64,000 nucleotides of DNA. Source: Sandaracinus sp. (GTDB lineage Bacteria; Myxococcota_A; Polyangia; Polyangiales; Houyiibacteriaceae). The notes under the pieces were generated by a model. It had not been told where the DNA came from, did no database searches, and was given only the letters and a program-made list of their open reading frames with translations. The stretch spans positions 1 to 64,000 of the forward strand of contig PABA01000162.1 of assembly GCA_002699025.1 (NCBI GenBank), read 5' to 3'. A program made the translations under genes and the position numbers. Position 1 is the first letter of the stretch. Every line of letters begins with the position of its first letter. Of the stretch, positions 310-47,838 are shown in pieces.

Positions 310-2469
310 TCAGCGCGGGATGGGCTTCAGGTTCAGCCCTGCGGCGTAGGCGTAGCTCACGAAGGCGTCGAAGCCGTAGATCACCACGCCCACCGGCGCG
401 TCCGCGAGCACCGTGTGCACGCCGTCGTTCTGCTCCCCGTCACGCACGATGTCCGAGGCGTCGCAGTCCGGCGCGCCGTCCGGGCACGCGCCCACCTCCG
501 GGAAGCTCAGCTGGCAGCGATGCACCACCTGCTCGGGCGGCGGGTCCCCGGGCATGCGCTCGATGCCGTCCGCCGGCGCGGTCGTGCAGAAGCGCTCGTC
601 GAGAGGGTCCCCGTCGAGCAGCACCTGCGTGTCCGCGTCCGCCGTGATGATCACGTAGTCGAAGGCGTAGAGGTTCGGCGTCAGGAAGACGTAGTCCTGC
701 CGGTACTGCTCGACCGGCGGCACCGCCACGATCGCCGGGTCGCCGCCCGGGTACTCGTTCGGGATGCCGATCGCCTGCTGCGAGGGGAGCACCTGCAGCA
801 CGGCCACCGGCTTGCCCTCGAGCGCCGTCAGGATGAAGTCCGACGAGGCCCGCAGGATCACCGACTCGTACTGCGCGAGGGTCACCCGGTCGTCGGGCGC
901 CGGCAGGGTCGTCACGATCGTCGTGTCGCCCGGCGCGACCGCCACCACGCGCACCCACTCGCGCTCGTTCACCTCCGCCACGCTGTCCCGGAGCGGGTCG
1001 AGGAAGGCGTCGTTCAGCGAGGCCGTCCGCGGCGGCATCTTCGCGATGTAGAAGAGCGAGCCCAGCACGTCGTCGCCGAAGAGCTGGTCCTCGAGGTGGT
1101 CCGCGCAGCAGAGCCGCGTCGTGTACGTGTCGAAGCGCGGCGCGTCCGACGCCTCGCTGCCGACGAAGACGCTCACGGGCTGCGAGGACTCGATGCGCGT
1201 CCCCGTGAAGTCGGCGTTCAGCCCGTCGGTCTCGAGGTTCAGCACGTCGAACGGCCCGAGCTCCACCATCAGCTCGTCGCGGCTGGCGAGCGTCGGGATC
1301 CCGGCCGCTTCGTTGCCGACGACCTGGAAGACCCGGTCGCCCATGGTGAGGTTCACCACCGAGCGCTCCGTGCCGCCGAGGATGGTCAGGAAGGCGCGCA
1401 GGTCCTCGTCGTCGCGCGTGGGATCGAAGTCCACCTCCACGCAGCCCGGCTCCTCCGGATCGCAGTCGCCGTCGGCGATGGTCTGCGGCCAGCCGACCAC
1501 CGTGTAGGTCGTGCTCACGGCGCTCGTCGGGTAGAGCAGCGAGGCGTCGTTCGAGAAGACCCCCGCGTTGCTGAGCGGGTTGAACTGGTAGGCGATGATC
1601 GGGAACTGCGAGCGCACCCGATAGCCCTGCGAGGTGAGCGCCGTATGCGTGCCGTCGTTCTGCCCGCTGGCGTCCTCGCTCACGCGGCAGAAGCAGGGCG
1701 GGGAGCCCGCGCAGACGCAGACCTCGTCACCGGGGCAGCTCTCCGGGTCCGAGGTGCAGAGCTGGTTGCTCGACGAGCCGTCCACCTCGCGCCGCGGCAG
1801 CTCGAGCACCTCGAGATCGCCGGGGAGGAGCGCGACCCGCTCCACCTCGCGGATCATCGGCTCCTCGCCGTAGGGCGCGTCGTTCACCTCGACGACGACC
1901 TCGCTGGTGAGCGGCGAGGGGTTCGAGACGACGATGGCGTACTGCTGGCTCGAGGCGTCACGCCCGGCGCCGAGGGCCGCGTTGTCGAGGTCGGCCGCGT
2001 AGAACTCGCAGCCCTGGTAGCTCTTCTCGGAGATGGCGACGTCGCAGAGGTTCTGGCAGGCGCCGTCCCGGCAGACGAAGCCCTCGTCGAGCATGCACTC
2101 CTCGATCAGCTCGAAGTCGTTCCCCGTGTCGCCACAGCGCACGGCGTCCCCGCCGCGGCAGAAGATCTGACCGGGGCGGCACACGGCGCAGCCGATGTCC
2201 GCCACGCACATCAGAGGCTGGCCCTCCTCGTCGAGCTGGGCCGCGCAGTCCTCGCGCACCGGACGCAGGAACTCGCCGGCCATCTCGCAGGTGTTCCAGA
2301 CCGTGCCCGTGCAGGCCTGGCTGTTCGGCGTGAAGCAGACGAAGCCGCCGTCGACGATCGGGTTGGGCTCGCCGCCGTCGAGGCGGGAGGGGCCGTCGTC
2401 GTCGCCGCAGCTGCTCAGGGTGGCGAGGGCGCCGGTGAGGAGAAGGAAGAGAAGAGTGCGCACGGACAT
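310..2469 (-). CDS. IgGFc-binding-like surface lipoprotein
   Basis: 719 aa. The N-terminus is a lipoprotein signal (MSVRTLLFLLLTGAL, lipobox LSSC, Cys21), followed by an Asp-rich linker. Residues about 40-135 are Cys-rich with paired CxxG/CxxC-like spacing. The remainder is a long beta-rich region with motifs typical of the IgGFc_binding family: QYAIVVSNPSPL, the segment around YRVRSQFPIIAYQFNPL, and a late GVVIYGFDAFVSYAYAAG. In myxobacteria these proteins are abundant, lipid-anchored and of unknown ligand. The start at 2469 was chosen because it begins the signal peptide; the frame is open further upstream without a signal. It lies 109 bp downstream of another lipoprotein on the same strand. 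A role in adhesion or surface binding is inferred from the family name only. Confidence 0.8.
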   Translation of the reverse strand: MSVRTLLFLLLTGALATLSSCGDDDGPSRLDGGEPNPIVDGGFVCFTPNSQACTGTVWNTCEMAGEFLRPVREDCAAQLDEEGQPLMCVADIGCAVCRPGQIFCRGGDAVRCGDTGNDFELIEECMLDEGFVCRDGACQNLCDVAISEKSYQGCEFYAADLDNAALGAGRDASSQQYAIVVSNPSPLTSEVVVEVNDAPYGEEPMIREVERVALLPGDLEVLELPRREVDGSSSNQLCTSDPESCPGDEVCVCAGSPPCFCRVSEDASGQNDGTHTALTSQGYRVRSQFPIIAYQFNPLSNAGVFSNDASLLYPTSAVSTTYTVVGWPQTIADGDCDPEEPGCVEVDFDPTRDDEDLRAFLTILGGTERSVVNLTMGDRVFQVVGNEAAGIPTLASRDELMVELGPFDVLNLETDGLNADFTGTRIESSQPVSVFVGSEASDAPRFDTYTTRLCCADHLEDQLFGDDVLGSLFYIAKMPPRTASLNDAFLDPLRDSVAEVNEREWVRVVAVAPGDTTIVTTLPAPDDRVTLAQYESVILRASSDFILTALEGKPVAVLQVLPSQQAIGIPNEYPGGDPAIVAVPPVEQYRQDYVFLTPNLYAFDYVIITADADTQVLLDGDPLDERFCTTAPADGIERMPGDPPPEQVVHRCQLSFPEVGACPDGAPDCDASDIVRDGEQNDGVHTVLADAPVGVVIYGFDAFVSYAYAAGLNLKPIPR

Positions 2470-2578
2470 GTCTCGGGAACGAAGATAGCCCGGCACGCGC
2501 CTGCGCGCCGGGCGAAGTCCGGCACCGACCCACGCGCGTGGGCCGGGCCGGGGAGAGGGGCCGGGGAGAGGTATCGGC

Positions 2579-4735
2579 TCAGCGCTGGGCCGTGAAGATG
2601 TCGAGCGCCCAGGCATCCCAGTCGTCGTCACCGAGGTCGCCGTAGCTCACCTCGTCGAAGTCGAAGCCGGGGATGCTGATCGCGTAGACGACCCAGGTCA
2701 CGAAGCCGCTCGAGATGTCGTCGATCTCGGGGATCGAGCTCAGGTCCGGGATCGGCGCGAACTGCTGGCTACCGGGCACGAACATGCGCCAGGCCGGGTT
2801 CCCGTCGCCGCCGACCATCAGCACCAGGTGCAGGTCCGGCTCCACGCCCCCGTCGGTCTCCCAGCGGAGGACGCGGTCGCTCGGCATGCGCTCCCCGAAG
2901 GCCGGCGCCGTCGCCACGGGCACGCCGAGGAAGCCGTCCACGACGACCTCCGAGTCCACGCGCCGGATGCCCTCGCGCACGACGTGCGTGCTCGGGTCCG
3001 CGTCGAAGTCGCCCGTCACCCAGGACGCCTGCACGCGGTAGCGCCCGTCCGAGAGCGAGCCGAGGAGCGCCGGCTGGGCGAAGAAGCGGAAGGGGCGGTC
3101 CGTCGAGCGGCGCCGCACCTCGTCGACGAGGTCGCCCTCGCTCCGTCGCACGATCACGCCCTCACCGCCGAGGTCGATGTCCGCGTTCACGACGAAGCGG
3201 TCGGGCCCGTTCCGCCCGGGTCCGGGGATCCCGTCGAGCTGCACGTCGAGGTAGTGATCGAGCGGGATGTTCATGATGATCTCGACGCCCGTGACCTCCT
3301 CGCCGGGGCCGGCGAGGACGTTCCGCGCGACGCCCATCACGTAGGGGATGAACTCGCCCGTCGTCTCGTTCTCGAGGCCGCCGAGCGCATACACGGCGAA
3401 GGCCGAGGGGCGCACGAAGATGCGGTACGGGTAGCCGCGCTCGCCGAGCGGCTCCTCGAGCACCCGGGGCTGCCCGCCGCCGAGGCTCGGGTCCGGGTTC
3501 AGGCAGAAGCGATCGTCGCCCGGGCAGGGCTGGGTCGTCTGCACGTAGGACACGCGGCGCCACCCCTCGCGGGCCGGCGGGATGATGTCCCAGGGGTTCG
3601 GCCCGAGCTCGTTCGGGCCGAGGAAGACGAGCTCGCCCGAGACGAAGGAGCCGCTGCGGCCGCGCCCGGGCGGCAGCTCACCGGAGCCCTCGCCGCACAT
3701 CGGGTCCTGCCAGGGGACGAGGAAGATGGTCACGTCCCGCGCGTCGAAGGCCACGAAGGAGGTCTTCTCGTAGCAGAACTTCGCGGCGTGGATCGTCGCC
3801 GGCGGCGCCACGTCCGGGCCCGAGAAGGCGATCTGGCCCATCAGGTTCGTGAGCCCCTGGTGCTCCGTGGAGAGGTCCTCGCCGAGGACGACGAAGGCCT
3901 CCGGCACGGGCGCCCCCGTGGTCGCGTCGATGACGCTGACGTTGATCGTGCCCTCGATCGGGCCGCCGCCGAGGCCGCCCTCGAAAGGGTCGGAGCTCTC
4001 GAAGTACTCGAAGCCGTCCTCGATGACGATCTCCGAGCCGTCCTCCCCGCTGACGATGCGCACGTCGACCGCGCCGACGGTGCCGGCCGGTGAGTCGCAG
4101 GTGATGCGGGTCTCGCTGACGACCTCGACGTCCGTGCACTCCTCCTCGCCGAAGAGGACGCGGTCGCCCTCCGCGAAGGCCGTGCCGCTGCCGGTGAGGG
4201 TCACGTAGGTGCCGCCGGAGGTCGACCCCCGGTCCGGCTCGATGAACGCCTGGTCGTAGACGTAGCCGTCCGGGAGGGTCGCCTCGGCGCCGGGCTGCTG
4301 CACGCTCACGTCCGCCGGGCCGGGCTCGCCCGCCGGGAGGACGATCGCGAGCCGGTTGCCGTCGATGCGCTCCGTGTCCGCGGGCTGCACCATGCGCCCG
4401 CCCACGGTGACGATGGCCTCGGCGGTGAAGCCCGTGCCGCGGACCAGGGCGGAGTTGCCCCCGGTGAACGGCCCATGGCCGGGCTCGACCCGGGCCACCG
4501 TGAGGCGCGTGCCGCCGATGCCCGAGTCCGGGAAACCCATGCTCCCGTCGGGGCCAGCGTCGGAGTCCGCCCGCCCGCTCGGGAGCGGCGGCGGCGTGAG
4601 CCCCTCGAGCTCGCTGCAGCCCGTGAGCCCGCCGAACGCGGCGAGCATGGCGGCCACGATGAGCGAGGCGCGCGCGCGGCTCCCTCGCCCATCTCGCGCG
4701 TATTCGCGCCGTCCCTCAAGCAAGCTCGCCATCAT
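2579..4735 (-). CDS. TIG-domain lipoprotein with carboxypeptidase-regulatory-like fold
   Basis: 718 aa. After a basic N-terminus there is a hydrophobic segment ending in lipobox LTGC (Cys40), so it is probably exported and lipidated. Two IPT/TIG immunoglobulin-like domains follow in tandem, about residues 75-155 (VARVEPGHGPFTGGNSALV) and 156-240 (FIEPDRGSTSGGTYVTL). Next is a region starting GTINVSVIDATTGAPVPEAF that resembles carboxypeptidase-regulatory/CnaB-type beta sandwiches. The C-terminal half is not recognised. Two ATGs in a row (4733-4735, 4730-4732) are preceded by GGGGA, so the start may be either. A plausible -35/-10 lies upstream at 4928-4955. It is probably a structural or adhesive surface protein. 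Confidence 0.8.
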   Translation of the reverse strand: MMASLLEGRREYARDGRGSRARASLIVAAMLAAFGGLTGCSELEGLTPPPLPSGRADSDAGPDGSMGFPDSGIGGTRLTVARVEPGHGPFTGGNSALVRGTGFTAEAIVTVGGRMVQPADTERIDGNRLAIVLPAGEPGPADVSVQQPGAEATLPDGYVYDQAFIEPDRGSTSGGTYVTLTGSGTAFAEGDRVLFGEEECTDVEVVSETRITCDSPAGTVGAVDVRIVSGEDGSEIVIEDGFEYFESSDPFEGGLGGGPIEGTINVSVIDATTGAPVPEAFVVLGEDLSTEHQGLTNLMGQIAFSGPDVAPPATIHAAKFCYEKTSFVAFDARDVTIFLVPWQDPMCGEGSGELPPGRGRSGSFVSGELVFLGPNELGPNPWDIIPPAREGWRRVSYVQTTQPCPGDDRFCLNPDPSLGGGQPRVLEEPLGERGYPYRIFVRPSAFAVYALGGLENETTGEFIPYVMGVARNVLAGPGEEVTGVEIIMNIPLDHYLDVQLDGIPGPGRNGPDRFVVNADIDLGGEGVIVRRSEGDLVDEVRRRSTDRPFRFFAQPALLGSLSDGRYRVQASWVTGDFDADPSTHVVREGIRRVDSEVVVDGFLGVPVATAPAFGERMPSDRVLRWETDGGVEPDLHLVLMVGGDGNPAWRMFVPGSQQFAPIPDLSSIPEIDDISSGFVTWVVYAISIPGFDFDEVSYGDLGDDDWDAWALDIFTAQR

Positions 4736-4927
4736 CGAAGTCCCCGCCCGTGCGTGGTGTCTCTGCGTGTCGCGCGGCCTCCCGTCGGAGCGCCGCGCCT
4801 CCCCGGCCTGACCACGGGCGCCTTCGCGCTCCGCCACGCCCCCCTTCGACGAGCCCCGTCGAGAATCGACCGCGGGCCCCGGCGCGCCGGAATCGCCGGT
4901 GAATAGCGAGGGAAAGGCGCAGGGTGA

Positions 4928-4955
4928 AGTATCGGGGCGCCGAGCCCGAAGTCAA
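4928..4955 (-). promoter_or_regulatory. predicted sigma-70-type promoter for the TIG lipoprotein
   Basis: On the minus strand TTGACT (4950-4955) is separated by 16 bases from GATACT (4928-4933). This is the best consensus-like pair in the 346-bp gap between the lipoprotein and the divergent metallophosphoesterase gene. It would give a leader of about 185 nt. The rest of the gap shows no other clear feature. Confidence 0.4.
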
Positions 4956-5081
4956 GCCGGGCCCGGCGCGGCCCCACTCGTTCGAGCGCGCCGAAGGATC
5001 GGCAACGAGGAGGTGCGCTCGCGCCCCGTCGGCACTACGAATTGCGCGTCCGGTCCGCCCTTTGCCTACCCTCGCCTTCCC

Positions 5082-6188
5082 GTGAACCTCGTCCGCATCG
5101 TCGTCAGCGACCTGCACCTCGGCAGCGGTAGCCGCCCCGGTGAGCTGAACCCGTACGAGGATTTCTTCCACGACGAGCGCTTCGCGGACTTCATCCGCCA
5201 CTACCTCCGGGACACGGGCGAGGACGTGGGCATCGAGCTGATCCTCAACGGGGACATCTTCGACCTGCTGAAGATCCGCATCGGCGGCGTCTGGCCCGTG
5301 GAGATCACCGACGAGATCGCCACCGAGAAGCTCCGCCAGTGCCTCGACGGGCACCCGATCTTCGTGCGGACGCTGAAGGAATTCATGGCGGATCCGAAGA
5401 ACCGGATCACCTACCTGCCCGGCAACCACGACCTCGACATGTGGTTCCAGGGCCCGCAGGACCTGCTGCGCCGCTACGTCGCGCCCGGCGACGCCGGCGA
5501 GCGGGTGCGCTTCGTGACCCACTCGGACACCTACTACCTCCCCGAGGGGATCCAGATCCGCCACGGGCACCAGCTCGAGCGCATCCACCGCGTCGACTAC
5601 CGCAGCATGACCCGGCGCCTGGCGGACGGCCGGGAGATCCTCGCGCTCCCCTGGGGCAGCCTCTGGATCCTCGAGGTGCTGAACCCGCTGAAGACCTTCC
5701 GGAGCCACATCGACCGCATCCAGCCGCTCGGCCGTTTCATGTGGGCGAGCCTGCTGCTCGACCCGAGCTTCGTGATGCGCTTCCTCTGGTACTCCACGAA
5801 GAACTTCTTCAAGCACCGCATCTTCAAGCTCGAGGCCTGGCGCGACCGGCTGCGGGCGATCCCGCGGCTGGTGCGCGAAGAGGTGATCTCGCTGACCGGC
5901 GGCTACGACGAGAACGCGATGCGCGAGCTGGCCCGCATGCGGGGGGCGCACACGCTGATCGTCGGGCACAGCCACGGGCCGCGCTATCTGCAGCTGCCGA
6001 ACGGGAAGACGCTGGTGAACACCGGCACGTGGGTGAAGATGATCAACCTGGACCTGCAGTACCTCGGGCAGGACAGCGGGCTCACCTACGCGGTGATCGA
6101 GTACGACGACGAGGGGAAGCCCAAGACGACGCTGATGCGGTGGTACGGTCGGAGGCAGTCGTGCGAGGTCGTGCCCTACGCGGATTGA
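5082..6188 (+). CDS. calcineurin-type metallophosphoesterase
   Basis: 368 aa, assigned a GTG start because the conserved fold begins at once (VNLVRIVVSDLHLGSG). The metal-binding blocks are complete: DLH (residues 10-12), GDIFD (57-61), GNHD (114-117) and a late VGHSHGP. This matches the calcineurin-like phosphoesterase superfamily and is closest in style to UDP-2,3-diacylglucosamine hydrolase/LpxH-like and YbbF-like enzymes, but the substrate cannot be read from sequence. No signal peptide is visible, so it is probably cytosolic or peripheral. A -10-like TACCCT at 5067-5072 lies just before the start, implying a very short leader. Its 3' end overlaps the next gene by 28 bp, so the two are probably cotranscribed. 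Confidence 0.9.
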   Translation: MNLVRIVVSDLHLGSGSRPGELNPYEDFFHDERFADFIRHYLRDTGEDVGIELILNGDIFDLLKIRIGGVWPVEITDEIATEKLRQCLDGHPIFVRTLKEFMADPKNRITYLPGNHDLDMWFQGPQDLLRRYVAPGDAGERVRFVTHSDTYYLPEGIQIRHGHQLERIHRVDYRSMTRRLADGREILALPWGSLWILEVLNPLKTFRSHIDRIQPLGRFMWASLLLDPSFVMRFLWYSTKNFFKHRIFKLEAWRDRLRAIPRLVREEVISLTGGYDENAMRELARMRGAHTLIVGHSHGPRYLQLPNGKTLVNTGTWVKMINLDLQYLGQDSGLTYAVIEYDDEGKPKTTLMRWYGRRQSCEVVPYAD

Positions 6189-45698: not shown

Positions 45699-46637
45699 GT
45701 GCTCCGCGCCTTCCCGCCTCTCCTCGCCGCCGCCGCGCTGCTCGGCCTCTCCCCGTCCGCGCGGGCCCAGGACGGCGGCGTGCCCACGAGCTGCGAGGAC
45801 GAGGTGCAGCGGGGGCCGCGCTTCGTGACGCCGGCGAGCGGCGCGAGCGAGGTCACGCTGGATGCGTGGGTGAAGCTCGACTACTCGGCCGGCTACTTCG
45901 CGGAGGGCTTCACGGCGAGCGTGGAGCTCCGCCACTGCGGCGAGGAGCTCACGGCCGTGGAGTGCGAGACGCTCGGCGAGCCGGTCGAGGGCGAGGCGCA
46001 GGTCGTCGGGGGCGAGACGCTCTTCTTCGTGCCGGCCGAGCCGCTCGAGCCGCGGACGCTCTACGCCGGCGTGGCGACGGGCATCGACCAGGACCTCGGC
46101 TTCAGCTTCCGGACCGGCGCGACCCTGGACACGGAGCCGCCGCACCTGCCGGCGCGGCTCGACACGCCGAGCACCGGGCGGACGGAGGGCGACGCGCGCT
46201 GCGGCGTGCCGGCGGGCTTCCGAGTCTCGGTGAGCTTCGACCCCCGCGAGGGGCGCGGCCGGGTGGACGACGGGCCCGAGGGCAGCGTGGAGTACCTGCT
46301 CTACCTGACGCGCGGGGCGACCGTGCGCGCGCCCGAGCTGCGGGCCCGGACGCGCTTCTTCCCGACGAGCCTCCTGACCATGGCCTTCGTGCTCGAGCCC
46401 GAGGAGGCGGTGGCGCCCGTCTGTGTGGTCGTGCACGCGGTGGACGGCGTGGGGAACGTGAACCGGAGCATGGAGCCGGCGTGCTTCGAGCCGGTGCAGG
46501 GGAACTTCTTCGAGCCGATCTGCGCGGCCGGCGGCGCGCCGGGCCGCATGGGCGCGGGCGACGGGGGCGGCGGCCTCGCGGTGCTCGGGCTCGCGCTCGG
46601 GGCGATGCTCTGGCGACGGCGCCGCGCGACGCGATGA
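45699..46637 (+). CDS. secreted protein with a C-terminal sorting tag (MYXO-CTERM-like)
   Basis: 312 aa with a signal peptide (FPPLLAAAALLGLSPSARAQ). A beta-rich body has several Cys (CEDEVQRGPRFVTPASGASE). The C-terminus is Cys-Ala-Ala-Gly-Gly, a Gly-rich stretch, a hydrophobic helix (LAVLGLALGAMLW) and RRRRATR. This is the layout of the Myxococcota C-terminal membrane-sorting tags (Cys, helix, Arg cluster), in which a rhombosortase-like protease cleaves near the tag. It starts a four-gene overlapping operon. Function of the body is unknown. Confidence 0.85.
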   Translation: MLRAFPPLLAAAALLGLSPSARAQDGGVPTSCEDEVQRGPRFVTPASGASEVTLDAWVKLDYSAGYFAEGFTASVELRHCGEELTAVECETLGEPVEGEAQVVGGETLFFVPAEPLEPRTLYAGVATGIDQDLGFSFRTGATLDTEPPHLPARLDTPSTGRTEGDARCGVPAGFRVSVSFDPREGRGRVDDGPEGSVEYLLYLTRGATVRAPELRARTRFFPTSLLTMAFVLEPEEAVAPVCVVVHAVDGVGNVNRSMEPACFEPVQGNFFEPICAAGGAPGRMGAGDGGGGLAVLGLALGAMLWRRRRATR

Positions 46638-47284
46638 GCTGGGCGCCCGACACGCTCGACGGGCTGCGCCTCGCCGCGACGCTCCACGAGGGCGATCCCG
46701 CGAGCGCGCTGGCGGCGCCCGTGCGGGAGGCCTACGAGGACCGGGTGCCAGACGACGAGCGGGCCTTCCTCCGGCAGGTCGCGCCCCGCCTCCGGCGCGC
46801 ACCGGACCTCGCCGCCTTCGACGGGCCCCCGCGGGCCCGGGCGCTCCTGGCCGCGCGCCATGGCGGCGCCGCGGAGGGCCCGACGCCGCGCCGGGGATAC
46901 CGCCCGCCGCCGGGGCTGCTCTCGGCGCTCGAGCGCATGAGCCACGCGCCGCGGGACGACGCCGACGCGGCCGCGCGGGGCCGGGGGCGCGCTTGGCTGG
47001 CGCGGGTGCGGCGCGCCGTCGGGAGCGCGCCGTGGATCGACGGGGCCCTCGAGGAGGCCGGGGCGGAAGAGGCGGCCGCCGTGCTCGCGCTGGCGCGGCT
47101 CGAGTCGACCGGCGAGGCGGCCGACGGGGCCGAGGCGGAGCGGGCGCTGCGCGCGATCCGGGCCGCGCGCCCGCGGGACTTCATCGCGGCCCTCGGCGCC
47201 GCCCTGACCGGCGTGGCCGCGCGCGGTCGCTGGGCGCGCGCGGGCCGCGAAGTGCGAGAGGTGCTCGACGCATGTCGCGGGTGA
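46634..47284 (+). CDS. uncharacterised protein; candidate SctK-like component
   Basis: 216 aa. It is Ala/Arg-rich and helical, with no export signal or membrane helix. Starts MSWAPDTLDGLRLAATLHEG. It overlaps the preceding stop by 4 bp and its end overlaps the following SctL/FliH-like gene by 13 bp. In type III secretion loci the gene before sctL is often sctK, whose product is of similar size and poorly conserved. The assignment rests on position only; no motif proves it. Confidence 0.5.
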   Translation: MSWAPDTLDGLRLAATLHEGDPASALAAPVREAYEDRVPDDERAFLRQVAPRLRRAPDLAAFDGPPRARALLAARHGGAAEGPTPRRGYRPPPGLLSALERMSHAPRDDADAAARGRGRAWLARVRRAVGSAPWIDGALEEAGAEEAAAVLALARLESTGEAADGAEAERALRAIRAARPRDFIAALGAALTGVAARGRWARAGREVREVLDACRG

Positions 47285-47838
47285 TTCGAGGCAAGGGAGA
47301 GCGCGTCGTGCCGGCCGCGGTGGCGGACGCGCGCGAGCGGGCCGAGGCGATCGTGGCCGAGGCGAAGGCGAAGGCGGAGGCGATCCGCGAGGCCGCCGAG
47401 GGCGAAGCCGAGCGCCGGCGCGCCGAGGCCGAGGCGGCGGGCCGGGAGGCGGGTCGAGCGGCGACGGCCGCGGCGCTGCTCGAGGCTGCGGCCGTGCGGG
47501 ATCGGGCGCTCGGGGACGCCGAGGAGGAGCTCCGGCGACTCGCGGTGGCGGCGGCCGAGCGGCTGGTGCACGCGGAGCTCGCGCTCGCGCCGGAGCGGAT
47601 CCGCGACCTGGTCGGGGGCCTCCTCGAGCGGGCGCGGCGGGCCGGCGACCGGCGCCTGCGCGTGCACCCGGAGGACGCGCCGCTCCTCGACGGGCTCCCG
47701 GCGCTGGCCGGCGCGGAGCGGATACACGATCCGGCCCTCGCCCGCGGCGACGTGATCCTCGAGACGGAGCTGGGCCGGCTGGACGGTCGGCTGGAGGTGC
47801 GCCTCGAGGCGCTCCGGCGCGCCCTCGAGGAGCGATGA
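47272..47838 (+). CDS. SctL/FliH/HrpE-family stator protein of a type III-type export ATPase
   Basis: 188 aa. A long, charged alpha-helical N-terminal region (about 20-100, rich in Ala/Glu/Arg, EAIREAAEGEAERRRAEAEA) is followed by the compact C-terminal domain: LRVHPEDAPLLDGLPALAGA then IHDPALARGDVILETELGRL and DGRLEVRLEALRRALEE. The 'RVHPED ... GDVILETELG' signature is diagnostic of FliH/SctL, which tether the SctN/FliI ATPase. No other flagellar or type III genes are present in the window, so this is an orphan relative to its partners. Confidence 0.85.
   Translation: MSRVIRGKGERVVPAAVADARERAEAIVAEAKAKAEAIREAAEGEAERRRAEAEAAGREAGRAATAAALLEAAAVRDRALGDAEEELRRLAVAAAERLVHAELALAPERIRDLVGGLLERARRAGDRRLRVHPEDAPLLDGLPALAGAERIHDPALARGDVILETELGRLDGRLEVRLEALRRALEER

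Follow-up and report, generated by a model that had tools for sequence, protein, structure and literature searches.

The SctL locus

Within a window of 64,000 nucleotides from Sandaracinus sp., we examined four open reading frames that run in one direction and overlap successively by 4 bp, 13 bp and 4 bp (Table 1), as an earlier note on this DNA had described. That note read all four genes as one operon with an M50 protease. The overlaps and the protease call hold, and comparison across relatives reduces the recurring unit to three genes encoding an all-helical protein, an SctL-type protein and the M50 metalloprotease. In 12 of 16 loci the MYXO-CTERM-type gene from the upstream end is encoded on the strand opposite SctL, and it is therefore not counted in the unit; it is probably a neighbor. 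Gene order is conserved in the remainder, with the M50 gene immediately following SctL in 38 of the 41 loci that have at least 1 kb of room, and the HExGH and NxxPxxQLDGGH residues are invariant across 22 M50 homologs. Reference type III clusters probed for the M50 or helical-gene families yielded nothing relevant. The note had seen no ATPase, export apparatus or needle gene nearby. In our searches for the type III ATPase and for export and ring components, the window's contig gave nothing over cut-off, and every match above cut-off falls on another contig.

Table 1. Genes of the SctL locus in the window and core type III genes elsewhere in the source genome (C, contig)
Feature	Position	Strand	Evidence
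312-aa secreted or anchored protein, MYXO-CTERM-like tail	45699..46637	+	weak MXAN_2561-family match, 14.5 bits
Helical protein, 216 aa, SctK position, function unproven	46634..47284	+	homologs upstream of SctL in relatives
SctL (FliH/YscL-type) stator, 188 aa	47272..47838	+	PF02108, TIGR02499, FliH 5b0o, AlphaFold2 model
M50 (site-2-protease family) membrane metalloprotease, 362 aa	47835..48923	+	PF02163, 74.3 bits
SctV	C193:137535-139493		genome search, 757 bits
SctN	C111:8574-9854		TIGR01026, 577 bits (cut-off 379.5)
SctR	C156:48524-49141		genome search, 219 bits
SctU	C201:12198-13199		genome search, 372 bits
SctJ	C16:19327-19833		genome search, 92.7 bits
SctQ	C123:61576-62211		genome search

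Identity of the stator and of its upstream neighbor

FliH and SctL proteins tether the type III ATPase, and the 188-aa protein belongs to this stator family. Residues 76-180 match the Pfam FliH family PF02108 (51.1 bits, E 1.6e-13; cut-off 24.1), and residues 11-171 match NCBIfam TIGR02499 (64.7 bits, E 1e-17), the best among 20 NCBIfam matches; since this score is under the naming cut-off of 78.7, the protein is described as SctL-type and no automatic SctL call is made. A profile built from 27 homologs finds its best Protein Data Bank match in FliH of the FliH-FliI complex (5b0o, E 1.6e-16), with F- and V-ATPase stalk subunits ranking after FliH. The AlphaFold2 model (pLDDT 91.6) consists of a long N-terminal helix spanning residues 15-105 and a C-terminal alpha/beta head, and its top Foldseek matches are FliH 5b0o (E 2e-5) and the Thermus V-ATPase peripheral stalk 3v6i, with probability 1.00. 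The Pfam match thus bears out the FliH/SctL assignment of the earlier note, as does structural comparison, which the note had named as able to refute it. The window's SctL is the only FliH-family match in the 9.24-Mb genome, and no complete type III locus with an sctL of its own was found elsewhere in it.

In 14 relatives, homologs of the helical gene (24-42% identity) stand immediately before SctL. A still more diverged open reading frame occupies the same position in the f3 loci, and some loci are interrupted by contig ends or N runs. This place matches that of the SctK-type gene directly before sctL in reference type III clusters. None of 22 homologs matches the SctK families PF06578 or PF09482, an hhalign comparison of the family with five proteins encoded at the SctK position gives a probability of 0.03%, and the family profile finds no SctK match among Protein Data Bank sequences. 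The AlphaFold2 model is all-helical and of moderate quality (pLDDT 84, pTM 0.53); Foldseek returned six matches up to E 10 with this model, none below 1, and VIA-align returned a single row, the FliG middle domain at Z 2.4, which is not meaningful. The earlier note's suggestion of a possible SctK agrees with the gene's position, and because Pfam, hhalign and the Protein Data Bank provide no informative match, we retain SctK as a positional guess. One HrpB1_HrpK match (15.4 bits, in 1 of 22 homologs) was rejected as chance.

Core type III genes on separate contigs

A search of the whole source genome, a 9.24-Mb draft in 238 contigs that is 96% complete, identified SctN, SctV, SctR, SctU, SctJ and SctQ as one gene each on six different contigs, none of which is the window's (Table 1). 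The stator is thus not the orphan that the earlier note had supposed, its cognate partners being present in the same genome, and the note's alternative, a stator serving some other ATPase, need not be invoked because the genome encodes one SctN over cut-off. The core parts have open reading frames: SctN contains a Walker A motif (GSGVGKST) and a T3SS_ATPase_C domain, SctU contains the NPTH self-cleavage motif, and SctJ is a 255-aa lipoprotein with the lipobox LALGC. Each component fits its non-flagellar NCBIfam model better than the flagellar one. SctV (752 versus 659 bits), SctQ (127 versus 42) and SctR (226 versus 196) exceed the curated cut-off, SctU (357 versus 317) is less than 1 bit short of it, and SctN (597 versus 583) and SctJ (151 versus 35) are below the naming cut-offs of these models.

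Several of these contigs carry further genes close to the core genes. A lycopene-cyclase-like gene (L013 on C111, 7392-8564) starts 3 bp after SctN, a pair also present in genome G046 and absent from the other genomes compared. Two tandem serpin-like proteins of ~410-420 aa are encoded near SctR (L016, C156:36000-55999, at 2614-5244), and a tandem pair of trypsin-like proteins bearing MYXO-CTERM-type tails is encoded upstream of tsaD and SctU (L017 on C201, 2118-5776).

Neither SctS nor SctT was found in the source draft assembly, and an SctT-like match on C106 (13.6 bits) was rejected as chance. All 12 relatives tested for SctS have it, and 13 of 14 have SctT, with weak SctT matches in G083 (E 4e-5) and G076 (E 3e-4) and none seen in G008 with the query used. 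The S and T genes adjoin in G180, G181, G045, G020 and G062 and are separate in G046, G144 and others. SctT adjoins hpt in G045, G046, G020, G009 and G053; hpt was likewise not found in the source genome, which points to an assembly gap. The simplest reading is therefore that SctS and SctT fall into a gap of the 96%-complete draft, and their absence could also reflect true loss from the source organism. On contig C100 (L219, ~2280-3300), a Cas3-like helicase open reading frame follows a TPR gene that adjoins hpt in relatives, and the local gene order there is unlike that of the relatives.

A scattered layout across Polyangiales

We compared three complete chromosomes of the order, Sandaracinus amylolyticus among them: G180 (10,327,335 bp), G181 (a 10.75-Mb contig) and G144 (12.24 Mb, single contig). 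All three carry the same core set, and on each the nine genes (J, L, N, Q, R, S, T, U and V) occupy 8-9 loci. In G180 these are located at 1.96 Mb (U), 5.48 (J), 5.75 (S-T), 5.80 (V), 6.25 (L), 7.98 (R), 9.10 (Q) and 9.78 Mb (N). Across the three chromosomes the loci are separated by 51 kb to 3.6 Mb, with the adjacent S-T pair of G180 and G181 as the exception; S and T are 529 kb apart in G144. The smallest gap between loci is not below that of random points on any of the three (P 0.26, 0.27 and 0.61). The dispersed type III system that the earlier note had raised as one option is thus seen on finished Polyangiales chromosomes as well as in the source genome.

Of 183 genomes in the order, 104 have an SctL-type match, as do 62 of 83 genera; the weakest of these matches include flagellar FliH. 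All 19 SctL-bearing relatives searched with the core-protein query gave SctN matches, the best at 53-81% identity. Within families the scattered genes keep their local neighbors, SctU with priA, SctJ with glutamate dehydrogenase and SctT with hpt, and these partners include no secretion gene. This retention of non-secretion neighbors suggests that the sct genes sit within everyday operons and are passed on by vertical inheritance. A second, flagellar-type cluster with FliF, FliH, FliI, FliP, FlhB and FlhA types accompanies the scattered non-flagellar set in G179 (L095), G062 (L096), G021 (C677) and G174 (C347).

Ancestry of the scattered genes

We placed the scattered proteins in quick SH-aLRT trees, several of which carry composition warnings. 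In the SctV/FlhA tree of 93 proteins, 13 scattered SctV sequences form one clade (SH-aLRT 98) that is joined at SH-aLRT 99 to two Myxococcia cluster sequences, one from an R-S-T-U-V cluster of Corallococcus and one from a U-V pair on a short Archangiaceae contig. The scattered SctV sequences stand apart from a 56-row clade that holds flagellar FlhA (SH-aLRT 100). The grouping with Myxococcia is also found for SctU (SH-aLRT 96) and SctR (SH-aLRT 89), showing that SctV, SctU and SctR of the scattered system share ancestry with a clustered Myxococcia locus. A deeper link of scattered SctV to the T3SS*-type cluster of Archangium is poorly supported (SH-aLRT 31).

A further SctV, in a Myxococcota metagenome-assembled genome (L239, JAUYJH010000016.1, 4107-9100), directly follows secA; no other type III gene occurs in the 7 kb before it, and the contig ends just past it. 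In the SctV tree this SctV forms a pair with the T3SS*-type sequence of Archangium, and its locus is possibly a second case of sct-gene scattering.

A probable dispersed non-flagellar type III exporter

Together, these data make it highly probable that SctL is the stator of a non-flagellar type III exporter whose core genes are dispersed at about one per locus across the order Polyangiales. By homology, dimers of SctL would hold the ATPase ring formed by SctN and connect it to SctQ, underneath the inner-membrane gate of SctV, SctR-S-T and SctU, and SctN would feed unfolded substrates into this gate. We infer from these correspondences that the separately encoded parts would assemble into one machine in which SctL binds the ATPase. 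The scattered system may lack a needle, it may have export substrates and a role in predation, and its genes are plausibly expressed steadily as a function of the cell and not as a switched island. A bolder version, in which the order-wide needleless exporter has become a chromosomal housekeeping machine with genes inside unrelated operons, the helical protein as an order-specific adaptor replacing SctK in its sorting platform, and the M50 protease encoded beside the stator as a working partner that would, for example, clear or activate an inner-membrane component, appears doubtful.

Among the alternatives, decay survives best and is nonetheless very unlikely. SctL and the other pieces would then be relics of a degenerating type III system that persist by chance here and there on the chromosome, as might be expected from the failure to find SctS and SctT in the source assembly and from surveys that describe the type III systems of myxobacteria as degenerate and largely restricted to Myxococcales, in which they are said to "mainly exist" (PMC10196010). 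Against this, the core parts of the source genome retain open frames, the same gene set is found on three finished chromosomes, and SctL-type matches extend over the 104 genomes noted above. Moreover, between G180 and G181 dN/dS is 0.25 for the helical gene, 0.20 for SctL, 0.28 for M50, 0.21 for SctV, 0.21 for SctQ, 0.10 for SctS and 0.14 for SctT, and this range of 0.10-0.28 over seven genes indicates that they are maintained, which argues against decay.

Still less probable is that the FliH-like protein has nothing to do with type III export and serves as a stator co-opted by an F- or V-type rotary ATPase or by the M50 operon. Its persistent pairing with M50, with no other type III gene alongside, and its structural similarity to V-ATPase subunit E would suit such a role, but the subunit E fold is common to all FliH-family proteins and this likeness is therefore expected, the best sequence and fold matches are to FliH/SctL, and an SctN/FliI-family ATPase is present over cut-off in the source genome and matched in every SctL-bearing relative searched. 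That the protein is instead the FliH of a flagellum is scarcely credible, since the separate flagellar-type clusters of G179, G062, G021 and G174 are offset by a source genome in which each component is single-copy and fits non-flagellar models better, SctJ is a short lipoprotein and not a 550-aa FliF, and SctV falls outside the flagellar clade, and in G179 and G062 the flagellar FliH is a gene distinct from the one in the SctL position.

A dispersed exporter would have consequences for how type III systems are sought. Type III systems normally form gene clusters, and both detection tools and myxobacterial surveys look for clusters. The scattered layout recurs across a myxobacterial order from which type III systems were thought mostly absent, and if a complete core set is scattered singly over 10-12 Mb chromosomes and kept order-wide, such systems are being missed. 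The system also allows the reasons for the clustering of secretion genes to be studied in a natural experiment, as purifying selection persisted after scattering. The early-branching myxobacterial type III group has been used in arguing the origin of the injectisome from flagella; the present findings extend this group to a second order, in which an ancestral non-injecting function may still run.

Comparison with known systems

The stator itself is predicted to share the fold of FliH in the FliH-FliI complex (5b0o) and of the V-ATPase subunit E stalk, and their role of holding an ATPase ring would extend to SctL by homology; unlike FliH-FliI, SctL occurs here in a non-flagellar context, at a single-gene locus with an M50 protease. 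At the level of the whole system, clustered type III systems are known from Myxococcia. The second M. xanthus cluster, T3SS(2), is MXAN_5643-5654. T3SS(2) has been reported to have no part in killing bacterial prey (PMC10196010), whereas prey lysis requires the M. xanthus T3SS* (MXAN_2434-2464), a single cluster (PMC12075869). In Cystobacterineae, Abby and Rocha described early-branching "long" and "short" clusters without a secretin in 2012 (PMC3459982), and the clustered myxobacterial kin lack secretin, needle and translocon (PMC3459982, PMC12075869). Homologs of sctV and sctR in Polyangia have been noted without locus analysis (PMC11509652). We found no description of a one-gene-per-locus type III system in the literature searched, which left out most subscription papers.

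A scattered, complete non-flagellar system is known from Chlamydiales, where it occupies at least four loci, three of them with core genes, and where scattering has been attributed to constitutive expression (PMC3459982). The Chlamydiales system has a secretin and places nine core genes in about three loci, compared with 8-9 loci in Polyangiales, and its SctV is not close kin of the scattered SctV in our tree.

The needleless systems of Myxococcia have the phylum and the core gene set in common with the scattered system, and the Corallococcus/Archangiaceae R-S-T-U-V cluster, which presumably corresponds to the "short" locus or T3SS(2), is nearest to its SctV, SctU and SctR. Local order around SctU is also similar: in the Archangium cluster SctU is followed by a 137-aa open reading frame and a TPR gene, and in the source genome by a 114-aa open reading frame and a TPR gene, the latter weakly matching the SctY chaperone (31.4 bits, E 2e-7). 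The Myxococcia genes lie together in one cluster (PMC12075869, PMC10196010, PMC3459982), whereas the core genes of the scattered Polyangiales system stand singly and usually hundreds of kb apart.
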